A stretch of 23,954 bases of DNA from Aquificota bacterium (GTDB lineage: Bacteria > Aquificota > Aquificia > Aquificales > Hydrogenothermaceae), in contig JAADDZ010000005.1 of assembly GCA_013153635.1 (NCBI GenBank), forward strand, positions 1 through 23,954. The letters run 5' to 3'. Both the position numbers and the translations under genes were made by a program. The stretch's first letter is position 1; the number at the start of each line of letters is the position of its first letter. Below, in pieces: positions 2,860 to 16,867 of the stretch. The notes beneath the pieces were generated by a model. The model did no database searches and was not told where the DNA came from. It worked only from the letters and a program-made list of their open reading frames with translations.

Positions 2860-4047
2860 ATGAATAGGATTTTAAAGGAACTCAAAGCCTATCCTATGGA
2901 AGAGCTTAACAAAATAAAACAGTCCTTGATAAAAGAAAAGAGAAAGATATATGATTTTGGGACAGGAGACCCTAGAGAACCTACAGACGAAAAAATCAGA
3001 AAAGCTCTCATAGAATCAGTACCGACAGTAAGCCAGTATCCTTCTGTATATGGAATAAAGGAGCTACGGGAAGCGATTTCTAGATGGTTCTATAGGAGAT
3101 TCAATGTAAATCTTGATCCAGACAAGAACATAATCCCTTCTGCTGGTTCTAAAGAAGCTATATTTCATTTTCCACTTGTGTTTATAGACCCTCAAGAGGA
3201 AAAAAATAGAGTTATCTTTGGAACTCCTGCTTATCCTGTTTATGAGAGAGGTACCCTTTTTGCAAATGGTATCCCTACCCCTGTAACCTTAAAAGAAAAA
3301 GATAGATTTTTATTAAGGTTAGACAAGGTAGACAAATCAGTACTAGAAGAAACAAAAATAGTTTGGGTTAACTACCCTCATAATCCTACAGGAGCTTTTG
3401 CACCAAAGAGCTATTACGAGGAGATGTACGGTATATGTAGAGAGTATGACATTATTCTATGCTCTGATGAATGTTATTCAGAGATATACTTTGATAAAAA
3501 GCCTCCATCAGCTTTGGAAGTAGGAGAGGAGAACATAGTAGTTTTTCATTCTTTGTCTAAAAGAAGTGGATTAACTGGGTACAGAACTGGTTTTATAGCA
3601 GGAGACCCAAAAATAATATCTGAATACAAAAAATACAGAGCTTCTTTTGGAGTGGCTAGTCCTGATTTTATACAAAAGGCGGCAGTAGTAGCTTGGTCAG
3701 ATGAAAAACATGTAGAGGAAAGAAGAGAGATTTTCAGAAAAAAAAGAGACATTCTTTTAGAATTTTTAGATAAAGTAGGACTAAAATATCTGTACCCAGA
3801 GGCTACATTTTACATATGGATAAAGACACCAGAAGGTATAGACCCAAAAGATTACATAAAAGCTTTAGTTAAAAATGGGATAATCGTTTCTCTAGGGGAA
3901 AACTTCTGTTCTGGGCTACAGACAAAGAACCAGACATGTAACAGTGAATATTTTAGAGTAGCTTTAGTCCCAACAGTTGACGAGTGCAAAGAAGCTGTAA
4001 AAGTTTGGGAAAGAGTCCATAACCAAATGGTTAAGGTCTTACAATAA
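2860..4047 (+). CDS. Class I/II PLP aminotransferase, DapC-like (succinyl-DAP transaminase type)
   Basis: A 395-residue fold-type I PLP aminotransferase. The PLP lysine is K234 in SLSKRSGLTGYRTGF. Other cofactor-site residues are N175 of NPTG, D203 and Y206 of SDECY, and the substrate-carboxylate Arg R366. The SLSKRS...GYRTGFIAGD block resembles enzymes annotated as N-succinyldiaminopimelate aminotransferase (DapC), in lysine and peptidoglycan biosynthesis. Aspartate or LL-diaminopimelate aminotransferase activity is possible, because this family is hard to subdivide by eye. It follows the helicase at 27 bp. Its last 17 bases overlap the end of the convergent M16 gene. The aminotransferase class is certain; the substrate is moderately supported. 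Confidence 0.88.
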   Translation: MNRILKELKAYPMEELNKIKQSLIKEKRKIYDFGTGDPREPTDEKIRKALIESVPTVSQYPSVYGIKELREAISRWFYRRFNVNLDPDKNIIPSAGSKEAIFHFPLVFIDPQEEKNRVIFGTPAYPVYERGTLFANGIPTPVTLKEKDRFLLRLDKVDKSVLEETKIVWVNYPHNPTGAFAPKSYYEEMYGICREYDIILCSDECYSEIYFDKKPPSALEVGEENIVVFHSLSKRSGLTGYRTGFIAGDPKIISEYKKYRASFGVASPDFIQKAAVVAWSDEKHVEERREIFRKKRDILLEFLDKVGLKYLYPEATFYIWIKTPEGIDPKDYIKALVKNGIIVSLGENFCSGLQTKNQTCNSEYFRVALVPTVDECKEAVKVWERVHNQMVKVLQ

Positions 4048-5317
4048 CGCAAAAGCTACCTTTTGGTATGTAAGTGTTCCATGCATCTATAATATCTTTT
4101 GCTGTTACTTGGTTTATATAATCTACATATTTTTCGTCCATCTCATAGCCAAATCCTATAACTTCAAACCACCCTAAATACCAAGACTGTTTTGCTCTTG
4201 TTTGATGGTCTAAAAGGTAATGTCCGATAAATTTTTCTTTTGCTGTTTTAATCTCTTCTTCAGAAATTCCTTTTTTTATACTATCTACTACTTGATATAT
4301 CCCTTCTAGAGCTTCTTCTGTGTTTTGAGGAGCTGTTCCCATGTATATAAAAAGATTGCCCACGTTTATTTTAGTTGGATAAAAAGAACCTACTGCATAG
4401 GCAAGACCTCTTCTTTCTCTTAGCTCTTGAAATAATCTAGAGGTAAAACCGTTGCCTAATATTCCATTTAGTACTTTGAAAGGAAAGTAATATTTCTCTT
4501 TTGCCTTTGGGGCGTTATAAGCTACAACGATAGTGGATTGAGTTCCTTCTCTTTTTAGAGTTTTGCACCTTTTTCCTTTTATCTCTATCTCTATATCTGG
4601 GTAGCTGTAGTTAACATCTTCTAATTTTGAGAAAGTCTCTTCTACCAGAGGCTTAACGTCTTTGTAATGAATATCCCCAACAAAAGAGATTACGAACCTT
4701 CCTCCTTTTAAAAGCTGTTTCCATCTTTTTCTTATATCTTCTATCTCTATTTTTTCTATATCTTCTATCTCTCCCAAAGTACTGTATTGGTAAGGAGTCC
4801 CTTTGTATATCTCTTTTCTAAGTTCATCTATTGCATATGAAAATCCTTCCTCTTTTTTTGCTTTTATCTGGGCTATTGTATTTATCTTCTCTTGGGTAAG
4901 TTTGTCTTCTGGAAATAGAGGATTAAAAAGTAAATCTTTTATTCTAGCTAATGCTGGCTCAAAATCTTCTACTTTGACTGCAAACTCTATAGTTGAGTAT
5001 TCATCTCCAGCAGACGCAGATATATACCCTCCACTGTCTTCAAATAGTTGATGAAAAGAAGAAAAATCAAAATTTTTTGTTCCTTTTAAAAGTAGTCTAA
5101 AAGTTAAGTTTGTAAGACCCTTTTTTCCTTCTGGGTCTTCTATACTTCCACCTTTTATAAATATAGTTCCTGCTATGATTCCTTTTCCTTGAGTTTGTTT
5201 GAATAAAACTACAGATTTATTAGCAAGTATCTCTTTTATCACGATTTTTCCTCCCTGCTTAGCGTAGCTAGCTGTGAATAAGCCTAATATCAAAAAAAGA
5301 AAAATATATCTACCCAT
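4031..5317 (-). CDS. Periplasmic M16-family protein lacking the zinc motif (non-catalytic subunit type)
   Basis: A 428-residue exported protein with a signal peptide (1-19, cleavage near SYA|K) and a two-lobe M16 (pitrilysin/processing-peptidase) fold. The zinc motif HxxEH should fall at 70-74, within GLTNLTFRLLLKGT. The residues there are N70, F73 and R74 in place of His, Glu and His, so no catalytic zinc site is expected. The second lobe keeps the Arg/Tyr signature in SRLFQELRERRGLAY (R294, Y307), which in two-subunit M16 proteases belongs to the non-catalytic partner that helps bind substrate. The usual neighbouring catalytic subunit is not in this window. The gene follows the tolC-like gene but has its own good promoter in the 65-bp gap. 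The family is secure; loss of catalysis is inferred from the residues. Confidence 0.87.
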   Translation of the reverse strand: MGRYIFLFLILGLFTASYAKQGGKIVIKEILANKSVVLFKQTQGKGIIAGTIFIKGGSIEDPEGKKGLTNLTFRLLLKGTKNFDFSSFHQLFEDSGGYISASAGDEYSTIEFAVKVEDFEPALARIKDLLFNPLFPEDKLTQEKINTIAQIKAKKEEGFSYAIDELRKEIYKGTPYQYSTLGEIEDIEKIEIEDIRKRWKQLLKGGRFVISFVGDIHYKDVKPLVEETFSKLEDVNYSYPDIEIEIKGKRCKTLKREGTQSTIVVAYNAPKAKEKYYFPFKVLNGILGNGFTSRLFQELRERRGLAYAVGSFYPTKINVGNLFIYMGTAPQNTEEALEGIYQVVDSIKKGISEEEIKTAKEKFIGHYLLDHQTRAKQSWYLGWFEVIGFGYEMDEKYVDYINQVTAKDIIDAWNTYIPKGSFCVIVRP

Positions 5318-5382: not shown

Positions 5383-6723
5383 TTAAAAGAGGTTTAACTC
5401 TATAAGGAGTTTTTTATATGTTATTAGATATTCTAGTATGTACTTTAGATACTTTTTCTTAGTTTCTAGTGTATATATCTCTCTTTGGTTTATCAAGAAT
5501 AGAGTTCCAGCACCTAACTTAAATTTCTTCTTCTCTATCTCTTCTAACTTTGTAACTAACTCTATCTCTTTTTTACTGTTTTTTATGTTCTCTTTTAGGA
5601 TTTTGGTCGTTTGAAAGATATTGTTTAGGTTAGTTTGAAGTTCTAAAAGAATCTTTTGGAACTTTTTCTCTATAAGGTACAACTGTTTTCGTATCTCTAT
5701 TGATTTTCCGATGTATTTTCTTCTTTCTATAGGATAGGTTGCGTCTAAAGTTAGTTTGTAGCCTTCGTTGTATCTAAAGTCGTGTACTCCGTATATGGAT
5801 ATGATAAACTTTGGGTACTTTAGTAGAGAGTAATACATTTTCTCTTTTTTTAGCCTTTCCCTTTCAAGGTTAAGTGTTATCAAATCAGGTCTATTTTCTA
5901 AGGCTATCTGTTTTGCCTCTTTTATGGATATGTTTATCTGTGGAAGTTCAGGGAAGAAGGGCAACTGAAATCTCTGTGCAAATTCTTTTTTTGAGATATT
6001 TAGGTATTTTAAAAATTCGTTTAAGCTCGTTTCTAAGTCGTTACGGGCTTTTAGGACTCTTTGTTCTCTGTTTATTATCTGTTGCTGTGCTTCTATTTCG
6101 TATATCTTAGGGAGTATTCCTGTTTTTACTCTTTTTTGGATAAAGTTTTGCCTTTGTTTTGCTTTTTGGAGTAGTTCTTCTTCTATAGATAGGATATGTT
6201 TGTAGTATATCGTTTTGTAATAAGAGCTGATAATTTTAAGGTATAGTTCTCTAAGTTTGTTTTGGAATTGATAATCTATCTGTTTTATCTGAATATCTGT
6301 TAAAAATAGGTTAAGACGCCTTTGGTCTATATTATTTCTTAGTTGAAAAAAGGGGATTTTGAACCCTATCTGTAACTCCCCATCTTGAGATGTCTTTATA
6401 TTATTGTATTCTTGGACACCTGTTGCCCTTCTATAGCCAAGTAAAAAATCTATACCACTAAAAGTGGGTTTTTCTAAGAAAAAACTTGCAAAATTTCCAG
6501 TGCTTAGAGGATAATCTTTTCTTTCGTATTTTCCAGATATTTTTGTGTCAAAGAACCCTTCGTAATATTTTCTCTTTCCTTGATATACATATTTTTTCCC
6601 TATTATGGTGTAAATATAAGGATTCTCTTGTGTTAGAAATTCTTTTATTTTTTCTTCTGTAAAAATCTCTTTTCCAAAAACAGTAGAAAATAAAAAGATT
6701 GCAAGGTACAGCCAGATGTGCAT
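5383..6723 (-). CDS. TolC-family outer-membrane channel protein
   Basis: A 446-residue exported protein: signal peptide at about 1-17 (ending VFG), a short N-terminal region, then two long alpha-helical hairpin segments typical of outer-membrane efflux proteins. Each repeat carries characteristic patterns such as KQRQNFIQKRVKTGILPK and KKKFKLGAGTLFLINQRE, where a helix is followed by a Gly and a coil (VKTGIL / KLGAGT). This is the outer-membrane exit duct of tripartite efflux or type I secretion. It starts 3 bp after the hlyD-like stop, with AGGAG overlapping that stop, so the two are translationally linked. It completes a cassette of membrane domain, adaptor and channel. The cargo is unknown. 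Confidence 0.88.
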   Translation of the reverse strand: MHIWLYLAIFLFSTVFGKEIFTEEKIKEFLTQENPYIYTIIGKKYVYQGKRKYYEGFFDTKISGKYERKDYPLSTGNFASFFLEKPTFSGIDFLLGYRRATGVQEYNNIKTSQDGELQIGFKIPFFQLRNNIDQRRLNLFLTDIQIKQIDYQFQNKLRELYLKIISSYYKTIYYKHILSIEEELLQKAKQRQNFIQKRVKTGILPKIYEIEAQQQIINREQRVLKARNDLETSLNEFLKYLNISKKEFAQRFQLPFFPELPQINISIKEAKQIALENRPDLITLNLERERLKKEKMYYSLLKYPKFIISIYGVHDFRYNEGYKLTLDATYPIERRKYIGKSIEIRKQLYLIEKKFQKILLELQTNLNNIFQTTKILKENIKNSKKEIELVTKLEEIEKKKFKLGAGTLFLINQREIYTLETKKKYLKYILEYLITYKKLLIELNLF

Positions 6724-6726
6724 ATC

Positions 6727-7998
6727 CTACTCCTGTTTGTAAGGATTTACCATTTTTGGAGGGAAGGCGTTTACTCTTCTCCATATTTCATACCACATAG
6801 GTACTATCGATAATCTGACCCAACCAGTGGCTTTTGTTCCTATCTTTAGTGTGTCAGATGGAGGCCATGGTTCTTTTGGGTCTTCTACGATGTATGCATA
6901 ATAAAAACCATCTTCGTGAAGTACTGGGTCTATTTTTTCTATGATTCCTCCAAAGGTACCAAATCGAATCACTGGCCAGCCGGGTATCTGTAAAGTAGGC
7001 CAACCATAAAATTGAAGGCGGACAGGGAGTCCTTCTTTTATAAGAGGCATGTCAAAATCTCTAACTTTTAAGAGAACCGCTCTTTTGTCCACTGTTGGAG
7101 AGAATAGAACTATCTTTTCACCCTGTTTTATGTACTGATTTTTGTCGTTTTGTAGTATTCTCACTACATAACCATCTTTTTCTGCATATACGGTAGATGT
7201 TTTGAATTTTGCTAGTTGAGATTTTGCTTTTTGTAGTTCTTTTTGGTATGTATTTATTTTGTTTTTTGTAGAAAAAATAGCTTTTTCTGTGTCTTTTAGT
7301 TTTATGTTCATCTCCCTTTCAAATTTTTTCTTTTCTTGTTTTGTTATTTTTAAATTTTCTTGTTCTATCTTTATATCTATCAGTAGTTTGTTTAGCTCTG
7401 CAGATGCTTTTATAAGCTTGTTTTCAGCTAATTCTAGCTTTCTTTTTGATTCTATCCCTTCTTTGAAGAGTTTTTTTATTCTTTCATAGTTTATTTTTGT
7501 TATTTCAAGATTTTTTTCTAGGGCTACTTTTTTTATGTAAAGGCTCTCTATCTTCTGCTGTATCTGTGTAATTTTTCTGTCGTATATCTGTCTTCCTATC
7601 TGAAGGTTTCTTTGGAGGTTTTCTCTTTTTTCTTGTAAGGTTTTTAACTCTTTTTTACTGTTTTCTAGCTGGAGTTCTGTGTTTTTGATTATTATTTTTA
7701 ATCTCTCTTGAAGTTTTTTATCAAGGTCAATCATAGTAAAGAGTTTTGTTCCTTTTTTTACAAACTGGTCTTCTTGGACATAGAACTCTTTTATAAATCC
7801 AGATATTGGTGAGTAGATGTAGTAATTTCTCTGGGTTGGGTGGTAGGCTATTACCTCTCCTATACCTTTTACTGTCTGTTGCCACGGTAAAAATAGAAAA
7901 ACTATAAGAAGTACCAAAATTACTAAAGTAAAGAGCCAAAATCTTCTGACTATAGGGTGCAGTTTTATCTTTTTTAGGGATTTATAGTTCATCTTCAT
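6727..7998 (-). CDS. HlyD-family membrane fusion (periplasmic adaptor) protein
   Basis: A 423-residue type I secretion or efflux adaptor. It has a short cytoplasmic tail and one transmembrane helix (about 20-38). The first half of a lipoyl/biotinyl-like domain follows (about 60-93, with YSPISGFIKEFYVQEDQFV). A very long coiled-coil hairpin spans about 94-265. The second lipoyl half is at 268-300 (YAEKDGYVVRILQNDKNQYI), followed by a beta-barrel region. The C-terminus (about 330-423) is Pro/Trp-rich. It links the inner-membrane transporter to the TolC-type channel. The first 17 bases overlap the 3' end of the membrane-domain gene, and codon 3 is a second possible Met start. The long hairpin fits type I secretion adaptors better than drug-efflux AcrA types. 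Confidence 0.88.
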   Translation of the reverse strand: MKMNYKSLKKIKLHPIVRRFWLFTLVILVLLIVFLFLPWQQTVKGIGEVIAYHPTQRNYYIYSPISGFIKEFYVQEDQFVKKGTKLFTMIDLDKKLQERLKIIIKNTELQLENSKKELKTLQEKRENLQRNLQIGRQIYDRKITQIQQKIESLYIKKVALEKNLEITKINYERIKKLFKEGIESKRKLELAENKLIKASAELNKLLIDIKIEQENLKITKQEKKKFEREMNIKLKDTEKAIFSTKNKINTYQKELQKAKSQLAKFKTSTVYAEKDGYVVRILQNDKNQYIKQGEKIVLFSPTVDKRAVLLKVRDFDMPLIKEGLPVRLQFYGWPTLQIPGWPVIRFGTFGGIIEKIDPVLHEDGFYYAYIVEDPKEPWPPSDTLKIGTKATGWVRLSIVPMWYEIWRRVNAFPPKMVNPYKQE

Positions 7999-8944
7999 AT
8001 TTCTTTCCTGTTACTGCTTCAGTAAGTTTTCCTACTTTATAAAAGCCTTCTGCAATTTCGTACACGTAATCAATCTGTTTTATAAATCTGTTTATCGCAG
8101 ATATGATGGAAACTACGATAATCTCTGAAGCTACAAACTCTCCAATAGGAAGTTTTCCATTTATCACTAAAAAACCACCTACTATAAGAAATCCACCAAT
8201 AATCACACCTTGCATAAAAAAGCTCAAGGTCTGTTGCTTTACAACTACTTTGAACAGTTTTTGTCTTGCAGTTACATATCTATCTAGTATTGTGTCTAAC
8301 TCTTTTAGAATTTGTGTTTTTTCTTTTTTGGAAAAGGGGACTTGTTGCAAAAAATAAAAGGTATTGTGTTTTTCGTCAGAGCGCTTTATGGCATATTTTA
8401 TACCGTTGTGTCCAAGAAGTAAGAGTATTCCTATATAAAATACAAGTGCTAACAGACCAAGCTCAAACAAGACTACATTGAAAAACAGTAGCAAAAGTAG
8501 GCTTATGATGATACTTATAAATAAAGCGGCTCCTTCTAGGAGGAAAATTGGAAAGAATTTTTGTACAGTTGTAATATCAAAAAAGTAGTTCATAACCTTT
8601 TTTATAGGTTCGTTGGTAAAAGGTTTTTTTATGTTATAAGCGTTCTGGGCTACTTCAAAACTCTTTACCACAAAAACCTGCTGTTGAAATTTTTCTATTA
8701 TGTACTCTTGCAAGATTCTTAAAATAGTGATAAGTACAAATGTTGCGATTACTACGAATCCTAAGACCAAAACAGATATAGAAGCATGAGCTACTATACT
8801 GTTTATGATAAAGGAAGAAGCAAGGGGTATAGATAGGATAAGGATTCCTTCTAGAGCAGAGTAGTATAGAACATAGAACAGTTGTTTTTTTTCTTTAGAT
8901 AGGACATCTTTGATGCCTAGAAAAATCTCCTTTTTTACGCCCAT
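7982..8944 (-). CDS. ABC exporter transmembrane domain without nucleotide-binding domain
   Basis: A 320-residue protein resembling the membrane half of a type I secretion ABC exporter (LapB/HlyB-like). Hydrophobic helices lie at about 24-52, 56-83, two packed around 130-178, and two around 243-287. The last block (LVINGKLPIGEFVASEIIV) matches the exporter pattern before the final helix. The protein ends at residue 320, just where the linker to the ATPase should begin. No Walker A, ABC signature or Walker B is present. The next gene, hlyD-like, overlaps its stop by 17 bp in another frame, so no detached or frameshifted ATPase domain follows. A TATAAT (reverse strand, 8977-8982) may be its -10, with no clear -35. 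No C39 peptidase domain is present. Energy source and cargo are unknown. Confidence 0.8.
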   Translation of the reverse strand: MGVKKEIFLGIKDVLSKEKKQLFYVLYYSALEGILILSIPLASSFIINSIVAHASISVLVLGFVVIATFVLITILRILQEYIIEKFQQQVFVVKSFEVAQNAYNIKKPFTNEPIKKVMNYFFDITTVQKFFPIFLLEGAALFISIIISLLLLLFFNVVLFELGLLALVFYIGILLLLGHNGIKYAIKRSDEKHNTFYFLQQVPFSKKEKTQILKELDTILDRYVTARQKLFKVVVKQQTLSFFMQGVIIGGFLIVGGFLVINGKLPIGEFVASEIIVVSIISAINRFIKQIDYVYEIAEGFYKVGKLTEAVTGKKYEDEL

Positions 8945-13583: not shown

Positions 13584-13991
13584 ATGAAAAAGATTATTTA
13601 TGGGTTTACCCTTATTGAGCTTATTATCGTTTTAGCTATCCTTGCTATTTTAACTGCGGTTGCAGTCCCTACCTACAGCAAGATAAAGATGAGTTCTTAC
13701 AAATCTACAGTCAAAAGTGACGTTAGAAACCTTGTAAGTAGAATGGTGATGTTAGCGATAGAGATAAATAATATACCGTCTTTATCTCCGAATCCTTGTT
13801 CTAATACATGTTCTTTGGTTTTTGGTTCTTATTCAGAATCTTTTAATATTAGCCAAGGTGTAAATCTTGAGATACAAAATACCTTATGTTCTGACGGGAG
13901 CAGTGGTTTTAGAGTGATAGGAACTCATGATAGAGTCCCTTCTTGGACATATCAGTATGATTACTGTACTAACCAGTTTTTAGAAAGTTAG
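13584..13991 (+). CDS. Type IV prepilin / pseudopilin
   Basis: A 135-residue class III signal-peptide protein: short basic leader MKKIIYG, cleavage after G7, then FTLIELIIVLAILAILTAVA (8-27) with the invariant Glu at mature position 5 (E12). It should be cut and N-methylated by a PilD-type peptidase and assembled in a pilus or type II secretion pseudopilus. The globular part holds four cysteines (72, 76, 102, 128), probably two disulfides; C102-C128 could form a D-region loop. No other pilus gene is nearby. A TATAAT occurs twice just upstream (13556-13561 and 13561-13566). The predicted transcript starts only 10-15 nt before the ATG and has no Shine-Dalgarno, so the message may be nearly leaderless. 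It ends 4 bp into the convergent fusion gene. Confidence 0.88.
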   Translation: MKKIIYGFTLIELIIVLAILAILTAVAVPTYSKIKMSSYKSTVKSDVRNLVSRMVMLAIEINNIPSLSPNPCSNTCSLVFGSYSESFNISQGVNLEIQNTLCSDGSSGFRVIGTHDRVPSWTYQYDYCTNQFLES

Positions 13992-16867
13992 ATTTTGGTT
14001 TTTAGAGTTATCTCTTTTTTACCTCTTAATACCTTTATTTTTAACTGTTCTCCTGTTTTTACAAAGAACAGCTCTACCTTTAGGTCGTGGAGGGTTTTTA
14101 TTCTAGAGCCGTTAACTTCTAGTATGATGTCTCCTTTTTTTATTCCTAGTTTTTGGGCTAGGCTGTTTTTGACAATATCTATAACTTTTAATCCTTTTTC
14201 TGTTTCTTTTATATAAACGCCTAGCTTTAGTAATTTTTTCCCTTCTAACTCTTGGGGATACAGAACAAAATCTCCTATCTCTTTGTCTAGCTTTTCATCG
14301 TTGAGTATGATTTTGTAGCTGAACTTATTTCTCCTATAACATCTACTTGGAATCCCAAATCCGTACTTTATGTGTCCATTTCCTACAAGGACTACCATCT
14401 TGTATTTTGGGTTTTTCTTTAGAAAACTGTCTATCGTCTCTGCCATCGTTTCGTCCCATAGGATTTGAGACTGGAAAAAATGCTCAAAATTTTTATCTGT
14501 TTTATGCATACCAAATATCTTTTTTAAGATGTTTCTGTACTTTGTGTTAGAGAAATCCATCTGGGTTGGTATTTTCTCTCTTTCTTCCAAAGTTAAACTT
14601 TCAAGACCTTCTTTTGAAACTTTTTTAAGTATTTCTGTCTCTATATTGAGAGCTATTACAGGAATCTTATGTTTTTTTGCAAAATCTAATATAGGTTTGT
14701 ACAGATTGTAGTCATATCCCCATCTCTTAAAATATTCTGTTTTCTTTAAGAACTCTTTTTCTGTGATTTCTCCGTTTATGTATCTGTCTAAGATTGGTTG
14801 AAATTTCCTTTGGAACATTTCCATTCCTATGGATACTTTTTTGTAACTTTTGTACACACCTTTAATGACATTTAGTTGAACAATGTGATGAGAAAAATTT
14901 GTATGCTGTTCTCCAACATAGATTATTTTTGTATCAGATACATCGTCTATGACTTCTTTTATATCTACTGTGTTTTTAACTGGTACACCTTTTGTTATCT
15001 CTCTAACAGAGTAGTTCTGCCCTCTTTGAGAAGACAGCTGACCTTTTTTGATAGTTTTTCCATTTTTAACATAGATGTAAGAATACATTCCATAATGTTT
15101 CAGTTTGTAAAAACTTTTGTCAATTTCTTCTTTTGAAGAAGAATGTATAAGACAGGATACTTTTTTATAATTAAAAGGATTTTCATAGGTGAAAACTGAT
15201 AAGCCTTCTTTATCAAAGGAAACACTAGCAAAGAACCTTTTTATAAAAGGATTATCTTTGTCCAAGACAATCAAATCTCTTTTTAGGTCTTTTGGTTTTA
15301 CTTCTTGTGGTGAGAGAACTTTTGTTTTTTTGTTTGAAAACATACGAATGAGAGTTTTATATTTTTTTTCATTATGCTTTTCTACAATAATAGTTAATTC
15401 CTTAGAGCCTAAAATATTTGCGATGATAGGTACTTTTTCTTCTTTTTTTAATACTCTAAAGAGGTCATAATTTTTGTCCAAGTTTATATTTAAAGGTTCA
15501 TCTTCTAGATATATGTCTATATTTTTCTTTTCTTCGTATATATCTGTGCTGTGTTTATACTCTTTAAAAACAGTATTAATAAAAAAGTATATTTTTGACC
15601 TTGTCCTATCTTTTTTCTGTTTTAGTTCAAAAGAAAGATGGAACTTACCGTCCTCTACTAAGGTAGATATATTTTCTACTTCAATATCTGGCGTCTTAGT
15701 AGAGTAAACCCATTGGTCAAAGAACCATTTTAGATTTTTTTGGGTTATCTTTTCGTATACCTTTTCTATATCCTTCCAAGAGACCTCTTTGAAAGGGTAT
15801 TTTTTTATTAGTGTTCGTAGACCTCTATAAAAATTCTCTTCACCTATCTGATTTTTTAACATATGGAATATAAACATAACTTTTCCATATCCGATAGCTT
15901 CAGATATGTTATCTGTTTTGTATCTAAATTTGAAAACAGGGTACTCATCTTCTTTACTAACGAAAGCTTCGTATTTTAGAAGAGTATTTTTTCTGTATTT
16001 CCACCCTTGAGATTTTTTTTCATAAAAATAATGGTCTGATAGATAAGTCGTTAAACCTTCTGCCCAGTTTCCTTTATCAAAATCTATATACACATAATTT
16101 CCAAACCATTGATGCAAAAGCTCATGTCTCAAGGATTGTTTTATGATAAAAGGGTACTTTATGAGTTTGTCTCCTATAAGAGTAAAGGTTGGCATTGAAT
16201 AGCCAGTTTGGAAAAAATTTTCCACAACGGCAAACCTTTTATAAGGGTAAGAAGTGATTAAACTCTCGTACTCCCTTATGTAGCTTTCTAAAGCTTTTAG
16301 ATAGGTTGGTGCAAAAGATGCATCTTTTTTCAGAAAGAAAGTTTCTAAAGAAATATCTTTGTACTTTGTACTTTGTACAACAAAATCTGTAGAGGCAATC
16401 AAATGAACCTTATCCACAGGATACGGAAATATAAAATTAAATGTAGTTTGGTTTTCTTTTTTTTGTTTTTTTATCTGTTCTGCTTCAGATACAGCTACAA
16501 ATCCAGAAGGTAGAGAAGCTGAAAAATTATAAATCGCATATCTATTAGGAATTGGATACCAACCTTCCATAAGGTATATAAACTTATCCCCAATAAAATT
16601 TGGACTGTCCTTTTTAGGAGTGTAACTGTACTCTAATACAAAAGGTTTTCCCCTTCGTAATAGAACATTTATATAGTCTCTATCTTTTCTATGTTTTAGA
16701 TTTAGATGTTTAGTGTAAAAAGTAACAAATTGATTTCTATCAGATATGACTTTTATCTTTCCTTTTAATACGCCCTTTTCTATTTGGACAAAAAGATTAT
16801 ATTTTATCTGTGCAAAAACTTCAGAAAATATTAATATAAAAAAAAGTGATAAAATTAACTTTCCCAC
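13988..16867 (-). CDS. Exported M1-like metallopeptidase + ChaN/TIKI-like domain + PDZ fusion
   Basis: A 959-residue protein with a signal peptide (1-19). Residues about 20-395 form an M1 (gluzincin) peptidase-like unit. It has HELLH (248-252), third ligand E270 in NWAEGLTTY, and a candidate catalytic Tyr Y327. The spacing is HExxH-x17-E, one shorter than the M1 norm. The aminopeptidase GAMEN motif is replaced by GYSMP (222-226), so aminopeptidase activity is doubtful. Residues about 396-630 are an unassigned linker. Residues about 631-870 resemble the ChaN/DUF399/TIKI superfamily: GEQH (652-655), GMEM (681-684) and GNGH (829-832), i.e. two GxxH motifs plus a Glu, the TIKI metal-site pattern. 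Residues 879-959 are a PDZ domain (LGIKKGDIILEVNG). The start is GTG, with AGGAG 6 nt upstream and TATAAT at 16880-16885 (reverse). It is divergent from smpB. Periplasmic protein quality control, or heme/metal handling, are both plausible. Confidence 0.85.
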   Translation of the reverse strand: MGKLILSLFFILIFSEVFAQIKYNLFVQIEKGVLKGKIKVISDRNQFVTFYTKHLNLKHRKDRDYINVLLRRGKPFVLEYSYTPKKDSPNFIGDKFIYLMEGWYPIPNRYAIYNFSASLPSGFVAVSEAEQIKKQKKENQTTFNFIFPYPVDKVHLIASTDFVVQSTKYKDISLETFFLKKDASFAPTYLKALESYIREYESLITSYPYKRFAVVENFFQTGYSMPTFTLIGDKLIKYPFIIKQSLRHELLHQWFGNYVYIDFDKGNWAEGLTTYLSDHYFYEKKSQGWKYRKNTLLKYEAFVSKEDEYPVFKFRYKTDNISEAIGYGKVMFIFHMLKNQIGEENFYRGLRTLIKKYPFKEVSWKDIEKVYEKITQKNLKWFFDQWVYSTKTPDIEVENISTLVEDGKFHLSFELKQKKDRTRSKIYFFINTVFKEYKHSTDIYEEKKNIDIYLEDEPLNINLDKNYDLFRVLKKEEKVPIIANILGSKELTIIVEKHNEKKYKTLIRMFSNKKTKVLSPQEVKPKDLKRDLIVLDKDNPFIKRFFASVSFDKEGLSVFTYENPFNYKKVSCLIHSSSKEEIDKSFYKLKHYGMYSYIYVKNGKTIKKGQLSSQRGQNYSVREITKGVPVKNTVDIKEVIDDVSDTKIIYVGEQHTNFSHHIVQLNVIKGVYKSYKKVSIGMEMFQRKFQPILDRYINGEITEKEFLKKTEYFKRWGYDYNLYKPILDFAKKHKIPVIALNIETEILKKVSKEGLESLTLEEREKIPTQMDFSNTKYRNILKKIFGMHKTDKNFEHFFQSQILWDETMAETIDSFLKKNPKYKMVVLVGNGHIKYGFGIPSRCYRRNKFSYKIILNDEKLDKEIGDFVLYPQELEGKKLLKLGVYIKETEKGLKVIDIVKNSLAQKLGIKKGDIILEVNGSRIKTLHDLKVELFFVKTGEQLKIKVLRGKKEITLKTKI

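Follow-up and report, generated by a model that had tools for sequence, protein, structure and literature searches.

Proteins of the ChaN/TIKI fold include haem binders and enzymes. The Campylobacter jejuni ChaN protein (2g5g, PF04187) is an iron-regulated haem-binding lipoprotein. RRSP is a 2His/2Glu TIKI peptidase in which E3900, H3902, E3930 and H4030 are each required for peptide cleavage, and this cleavage is metal-independent (PMC6254334). ChaN also occurs with PDZ domains: a 2019 survey of PDZ proteins (PMC6411480) counted 37 PDZ-ChaN "Haem-binding uptake" proteins (e.g. DVU_3254), one of them in Aquificae. The family is classed there as nonprotease and uncharacterised, and the legend of the architecture figure names no M1 domain. 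No description of an M1-ChaN-PDZ fusion, or of the link from ChaN to M1, was found in the open-access literature.

Such a fusion is encoded on a 23,954-nucleotide stretch of DNA from a heat-loving Aquificota bacterium (Hydrogenothermaceae), the whole of which is referred to as the window. The gene is a single minus-strand ORF of 959 aa, which starts with GTG at 16867 and stops at 13990-13988; from N- to C-terminus it encodes a predicted signal peptide, an M1-type gluzincin, a middle region, the ChaN/TIKI domain and the PDZ domain. Conservation was scored over 82 distinct fused sequences, with the M1 region covered in 81 and one row lacking that region. The features are as follows.

13988..16867, minus strand: whole gene, 959 aa, GTG start, Shine-Dalgarno-like AGGAG at 16878-16874
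16811..16867, minus strand: predicted signal peptide, residues 1-19, read by eye, at the low-pLDDT start of the model
16331..16810, minus strand: M1 domain I (beta saddle), residues 20-179, from the model; M1 fold match from residue 18
15686..16330, minus strand: M1 thermolysin-like catalytic domain, residues 180-394 (PF01433 at 246-386; Z 29 to 1z1w)
16181..16204, minus strand: GYSMPTFT at the place of GAMEN, residues 222-229; G222 and P226 in 81/81
16112..16126, minus strand: HELLH, residues 248-252, with predicted zinc ligands H248 and H252 and base E249; 81/81
16058..16060, minus strand: E270, predicted third zinc ligand (HExxH-x17-E); 81/81
15887..15889, minus strand: Y327, at the alignment position of the M1 transition-state tyrosine; 81/81
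15437..15685, minus strand: M1 domain III beta sandwich, residues 395-477 (Z 7.7 to PfA-M1 domain III)
15029..15436, minus strand: flavodoxin-like domain, residues 478-613 (Z 10.4 over 131 residues, 9fmt_F)
14252..14977, minus strand: ChaN/TIKI domain, residues 631-872 (Pfam 2e-69; 2g5g profile 3e-13; fold Z 23.4)
14903..14914, minus strand: GEQH, residues 652-655 (E653, H655); 82/82
14819..14821, minus strand: E683 in GMEM, at a spacing of 30 from E653, as between E3900 and E3930 of RRSP; 82/82
14450..14458, minus strand: WDE, residues 804-806; E806 marks fused and M1-paired ChaN
14372..14383, minus strand: GNGH, residues 829-832 (H832); 82/82
13991..14230, minus strand: PDZ domain, HtrA-type, residues 880-959 (PF13180, 3e-14)

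The plus-strand frame across 13988-16867 was full of stops. A type IV pilin-like gene at 13584-13991 (plus strand) is convergent with the fusion gene and overlaps its stop by 4 bases. By eye, the N-terminal hydrophobic stretch ends in SEVFA followed by Q, and cleavage appears to fall after VFA, with residues 1-19 as the predicted signal peptide. Pfam matches above the curated cut-offs were obtained to Peptidase_M1 (PF01433, residues 246-386, 2e-15), Cofac_haem_bdg/ChaN (PF04187, residues 640-842, 2e-69; 234 bits against a cut-off of 27.7) and PDZ_2 (PF13180, residues 882-959, 3e-14), the last in agreement with the C-terminal PDZ domain proposed in a preliminary description of this DNA. The motif positions listed there (H248-E-L-L-H252 with E270, GEQH at 652-655, E683 in GMEM and GNGH at 829-832) were all found in place. 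No curated NCBIfam model covering the whole 959-aa protein scored above its cut-off.

The 82 distinct sequences carry M1, ChaN and PDZ in one frame of ~1000 aa and come from Aquificota, Nitrospirota, Thermodesulfobacteriota, Schekmanbacteria, some Gammaproteobacteria (e.g. Thiomargarita) and others. Within Aquificota the M1 part was found in 24 of 136 genomes, all in Hydrogenothermaceae, the window's own family; in many other Aquificota, ChaN is a free-standing protein of 235-300 aa. When one genome per species was scanned, at least 589 stretches with similarity to the M1 part came up, and most of the best 80 loci among them were M1-link-ChaN-PDZ in one frame. The spread is patchy, with 2/60 genomes of one desulfobacterial class and 7/61 Nitrospirota (by frame length and score). 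In a tree of the M1 part, the fused forms all fell on one side of a branch with support 100/99. Separation was less clean in the ChaN tree, where gammaproteobacterial ChaN-PDZ and free-standing Aquificota ChaN fell among the fused forms, partly with weak support.

Because the arrangement recurs in 82 distinct one-frame sequences with invariant catalytic residues, the fusion is not attributable to chance, and the joining of two genes by sequencing error, raised as a concern in the preliminary description, gives way to a genuine fusion. A sequencing or assembly error of that kind was rejected on the shared frame; nothing was found in its favour, and its probability is taken to be practically nil. 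Two records deserve separate mention. One relative in the family (G111:C6:13721-14615; L132, L135) has several stops in the M1 part and an open ChaN frame of 267 aa, from either decay or poor assembly. The fusion is also present in a record labelled "uncultured archaeon" (L085), which clusters with a Nitrospirota sequence in the trees; the archaeal label is probably due to a binning mix-up.

An AlphaFold model of the whole protein was built from 18 sequences (mean pLDDT 90.8, pTM 0.84), and a second, of residues 395-872, from 35 sequences (pLDDT 92.6). M1 aminopeptidases aligned with residues 18-609 of the model (Z 29 to 1z1w over 452 residues), in line with the M1 fold first proposed from the motifs. 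The middle region consists of domain III and a flavodoxin-like domain that sits where M1 enzymes have domain IV, so the protein lacks the helical domain IV found in M1 aminopeptidases. In the model, residues 478-613 resemble a flavodoxin-like domain found in BcsB (BcsB residues 528-723), a subunit of cellulose synthase; this is a match of fold alone, on which membership of the BcsB family is not claimed. The TIKI/ChaN fold proposed for residues 631-870 was recovered as well, with 2g5g the nearest structure by far (Z 23.4, 225 of 255 residues; next-best match Z 15.4), followed by HopBA1, Ere-type esterases and RRSP. In a profile search of the PDB with the ChaN domain 2g5g was the only match (3e-13), and a PDB sequence search with this domain alone gave none.

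In the M1 site, H248, E249, H252, E270 and Y327 were invariant in 81/81 sequences. The x17 spacing between HExxH and E, against the usual x18 of M1 enzymes, was present in 54 of 55 sampled relatives; all 55 sampled M1 domains had GxxxP at the GAMEN place, and none had the GxMEN exopeptidase motif. In the HMM alignment to factor F3 the AMEN letters fall in a gap. The divergent, GAMEN-less M1 branch suggested earlier from a single sequence therefore holds for the sampled group. Since GxMEN was found in 0/55, the protein may be called an "M1-fold gluzincin" but not an "M1 aminopeptidase". This divergence, in GAMEN and in spacing, would also suit a holdase or scaffold, that is, a periplasmic chaperone with one or both active sites dead, but the putative zinc ligands, general base and tyrosine are invariant across several phyla, unlike those of a dead enzyme, and such a function is considered very improbable.

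In the ChaN/TIKI site, E653, H655, H661, E683 and H832 were invariant in 82/82. E653, H655, E683 and H832 make up the 2His/2Glu set, being counterparts by motif of RRSP E3900, H3902, E3930 and H4030, and are expected to cluster in one site by analogy with homologous structures, where the motifs do so. 2g5g, the only solved ChaN structure found, is a haem complex, and by profile alignment it retains the same 2His/2Glu residues, so these residues alone do not separate an enzyme from a haem binder; at the positions of the invariant H661 and E806 of the fusion, it aligns K and R. E806 was found in 37/37 fused sequences and 9/9 gammaproteobacterial ChaN-PDZ, and in 0/15 free-standing Aquificota ChaN and 0/4 other ChaN. 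Since E806 occurs in fused and paired ChaN only, the pattern suggests that this ChaN is adapted to its M1 partner, be it fused or separate.

These residues bear on a haem-turnover role, in which the M1 part would cut haem proteins (c-type cytochromes or damaged haemoproteins, for example) and the ChaN part, as a binding site and not an enzyme, would bind the freed haem and hand it on. Such a role would fit the distance by which ChaN leads the fold matches, the two cofacial haems bound by C. jejuni ChaN (title of 2g5g) and the B. fragilis ChaN-like lipoprotein that falls together with haem-uptake proteins (PMC10102347), but E806 together with R845 sets the fused and paired ChaN clade apart from the other ChaN sampled. 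The ChaN part might instead be a non-proteolytic, esterase- or amidase-like hydrolase whose substrate is a modified peptide or a component of the envelope; the M1 part would then trim the peptide. In the erythromycin esterase branch the same 2His/2Glu arrangement performs ester hydrolysis, and EreC and BcR135 matched the ChaN domain in fold (Z 13.8-14.8); ChaN, however, is a closer relative than the esterases.

The two units also occur as separate genes. Of 8 gammaproteobacterial loci fetched, 5 (L206, L207, L209, L210, L211) have an M1-link gene (~680-750 aa) in head-to-head orientation with a ChaN-PDZ gene. Together with E806 in fused and paired ChaN only, this split pair provides independent evidence that the M1 and ChaN units work together, and gives new support to the earlier idea of one machine. 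The slot after the link may be filled by an M28 peptidase instead of ChaN, as in M1-link-M28-PDZ proteins of ~1120 aa (L098, L100, L104, L107, L109, L110), which are predicted to hold two zinc peptidases in one exported chain. A ChaN-PDZ gene lies downstream of the M1-M28-PDZ gene in L107, and a separate ChaN gene was present in 6/6 checked genomes with M1-M28-PDZ, so M28 is no simple replacement for ChaN. In Nitrospirota the M1-link unit also occurs alone, with no adjoining ChaN.

Clustering of the ORFs flanking the fusion and the split pair gave no recurrent operon partner naming a substrate; the clusters were mostly antisense frames of the fusion gene and local synteny (by eye, divergent smpB in Aquificota and thiamine-type genes in Nitrospira). 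No haem gene was prominent among these recurrent neighbours, and haem turnover, although a serious candidate, is judged unlikely; nor did the neighbourhoods give any pointer to a substrate of an esterase- or amidase-like enzyme, which is regarded as distinctly unlikely. There was no PADLOC match to a defence system, and no viral carriage was found. Elsewhere in the window, a gene at 7982-8944 (minus strand) encodes a 320-aa ABC-exporter-like protein whose match to type I secretion/NHLP exporters is confined to their membrane part, with no ATP-binding domain seen; it is followed by HlyD-like and TolC-like genes (6727-7998 and 5383-6723, both minus strand). A single M16-like peptidase gene at 4031-5317 (minus strand) was nearest to YfmF models, below their cut-off.

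From the domains, their folds and conservation, the fusion in several phyla and the genetic pairing, the preferred reading is an exported periplasmic two-enzyme protein in which an M1 endopeptidase is combined with a second, ChaN hydrolase and a PDZ domain presents substrates; this reading is held to stand about an even chance of being correct. After its predicted export to the periplasm, the M1-type site, putatively zinc-bearing, would hydrolyse peptide bonds, and because it has neither the GAMEN glutamate that anchors a free N-terminus nor a closing helical domain IV, it would probably be an endopeptidase that cuts extended or unfolded chains. A second hydrolase, with a 2His/2Glu site, would be provided by the ChaN/TIKI unit and act on the same client, by a second cut or by removal of an attached group or cofactor. 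The HtrA-type PDZ domain at the C-terminus would bind client C-termini; alternatively, its role could be regulatory. So assembled, the fusion would appear to be a previously undescribed two-headed machine for protein processing in the periplasm, with the residues of both active sites intact. It is possible, and is put forward only tentatively, that it represents an unrecognised class of periplasmic two-headed protease in which an M1 endopeptidase without GAMEN shares one PDZ-recruited client with a 2His/2Glu peptidase of the ChaN/TIKI type; if that were true, ChaN, known only as a haem binder, would become an enzyme family. A ChaN that comes with an intact M1-type peptidase, by fusion or by pairing, offers a direct handle on its role beyond haem binding. 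The M1 partner and the invariant clade residues E806 and R845 predict that ChaN acts as an enzyme, or handles a cofactor, within a proteolytic pathway, and a PDZ family filed as "nonprotease" would shift to the protease side.

Among known systems, the M1 aminopeptidases (Tricorn factor F3 1z1w, PepN, ERAP1, LTA4H) have in common with the fusion the domain I-II-III fold, HExxH...E and the catalytic tyrosine. Unlike them, the fusion has no GAMEN, x17 in place of x18 and no helical domain IV, and its M1 part is joined to flavodoxin-like, ChaN and PDZ parts. C. jejuni ChaN has the same fold and the same GExH, E and H residues, but is a free-standing lipoprotein, whereas in the fusion ChaN lies within a longer chain and has H661 and E806 as invariant residues. 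RRSP and the erythromycin esterases, of the TIKI superfamily, match this ChaN in fold at Z 12-15, and RRSP shares its 2His/2Glu set, the two Glu again 30 residues apart; RRSP, however, is a toxin effector domain with other partner domains, while the fusion is a predicted exported protein of free-living bacteria. In PMC6411480, M61 gluzincins with PDZ and M28 with PDZ ("APN", "ZEP") likewise combine a zinc peptidase with PDZ, but have no ChaN; M28-PDZ, a separate family there, recurs here as the alternative tail of the M1-link unit. The PDZ-ChaN family, as that survey presents it, has ChaN with an HtrA-like PDZ, as in the fusion, and very probably includes members of the M1-ChaN-PDZ fusion. Going by that account and the open-access literature, ChaN-PDZ was already known as a family, and its link to M1 appears to be new.
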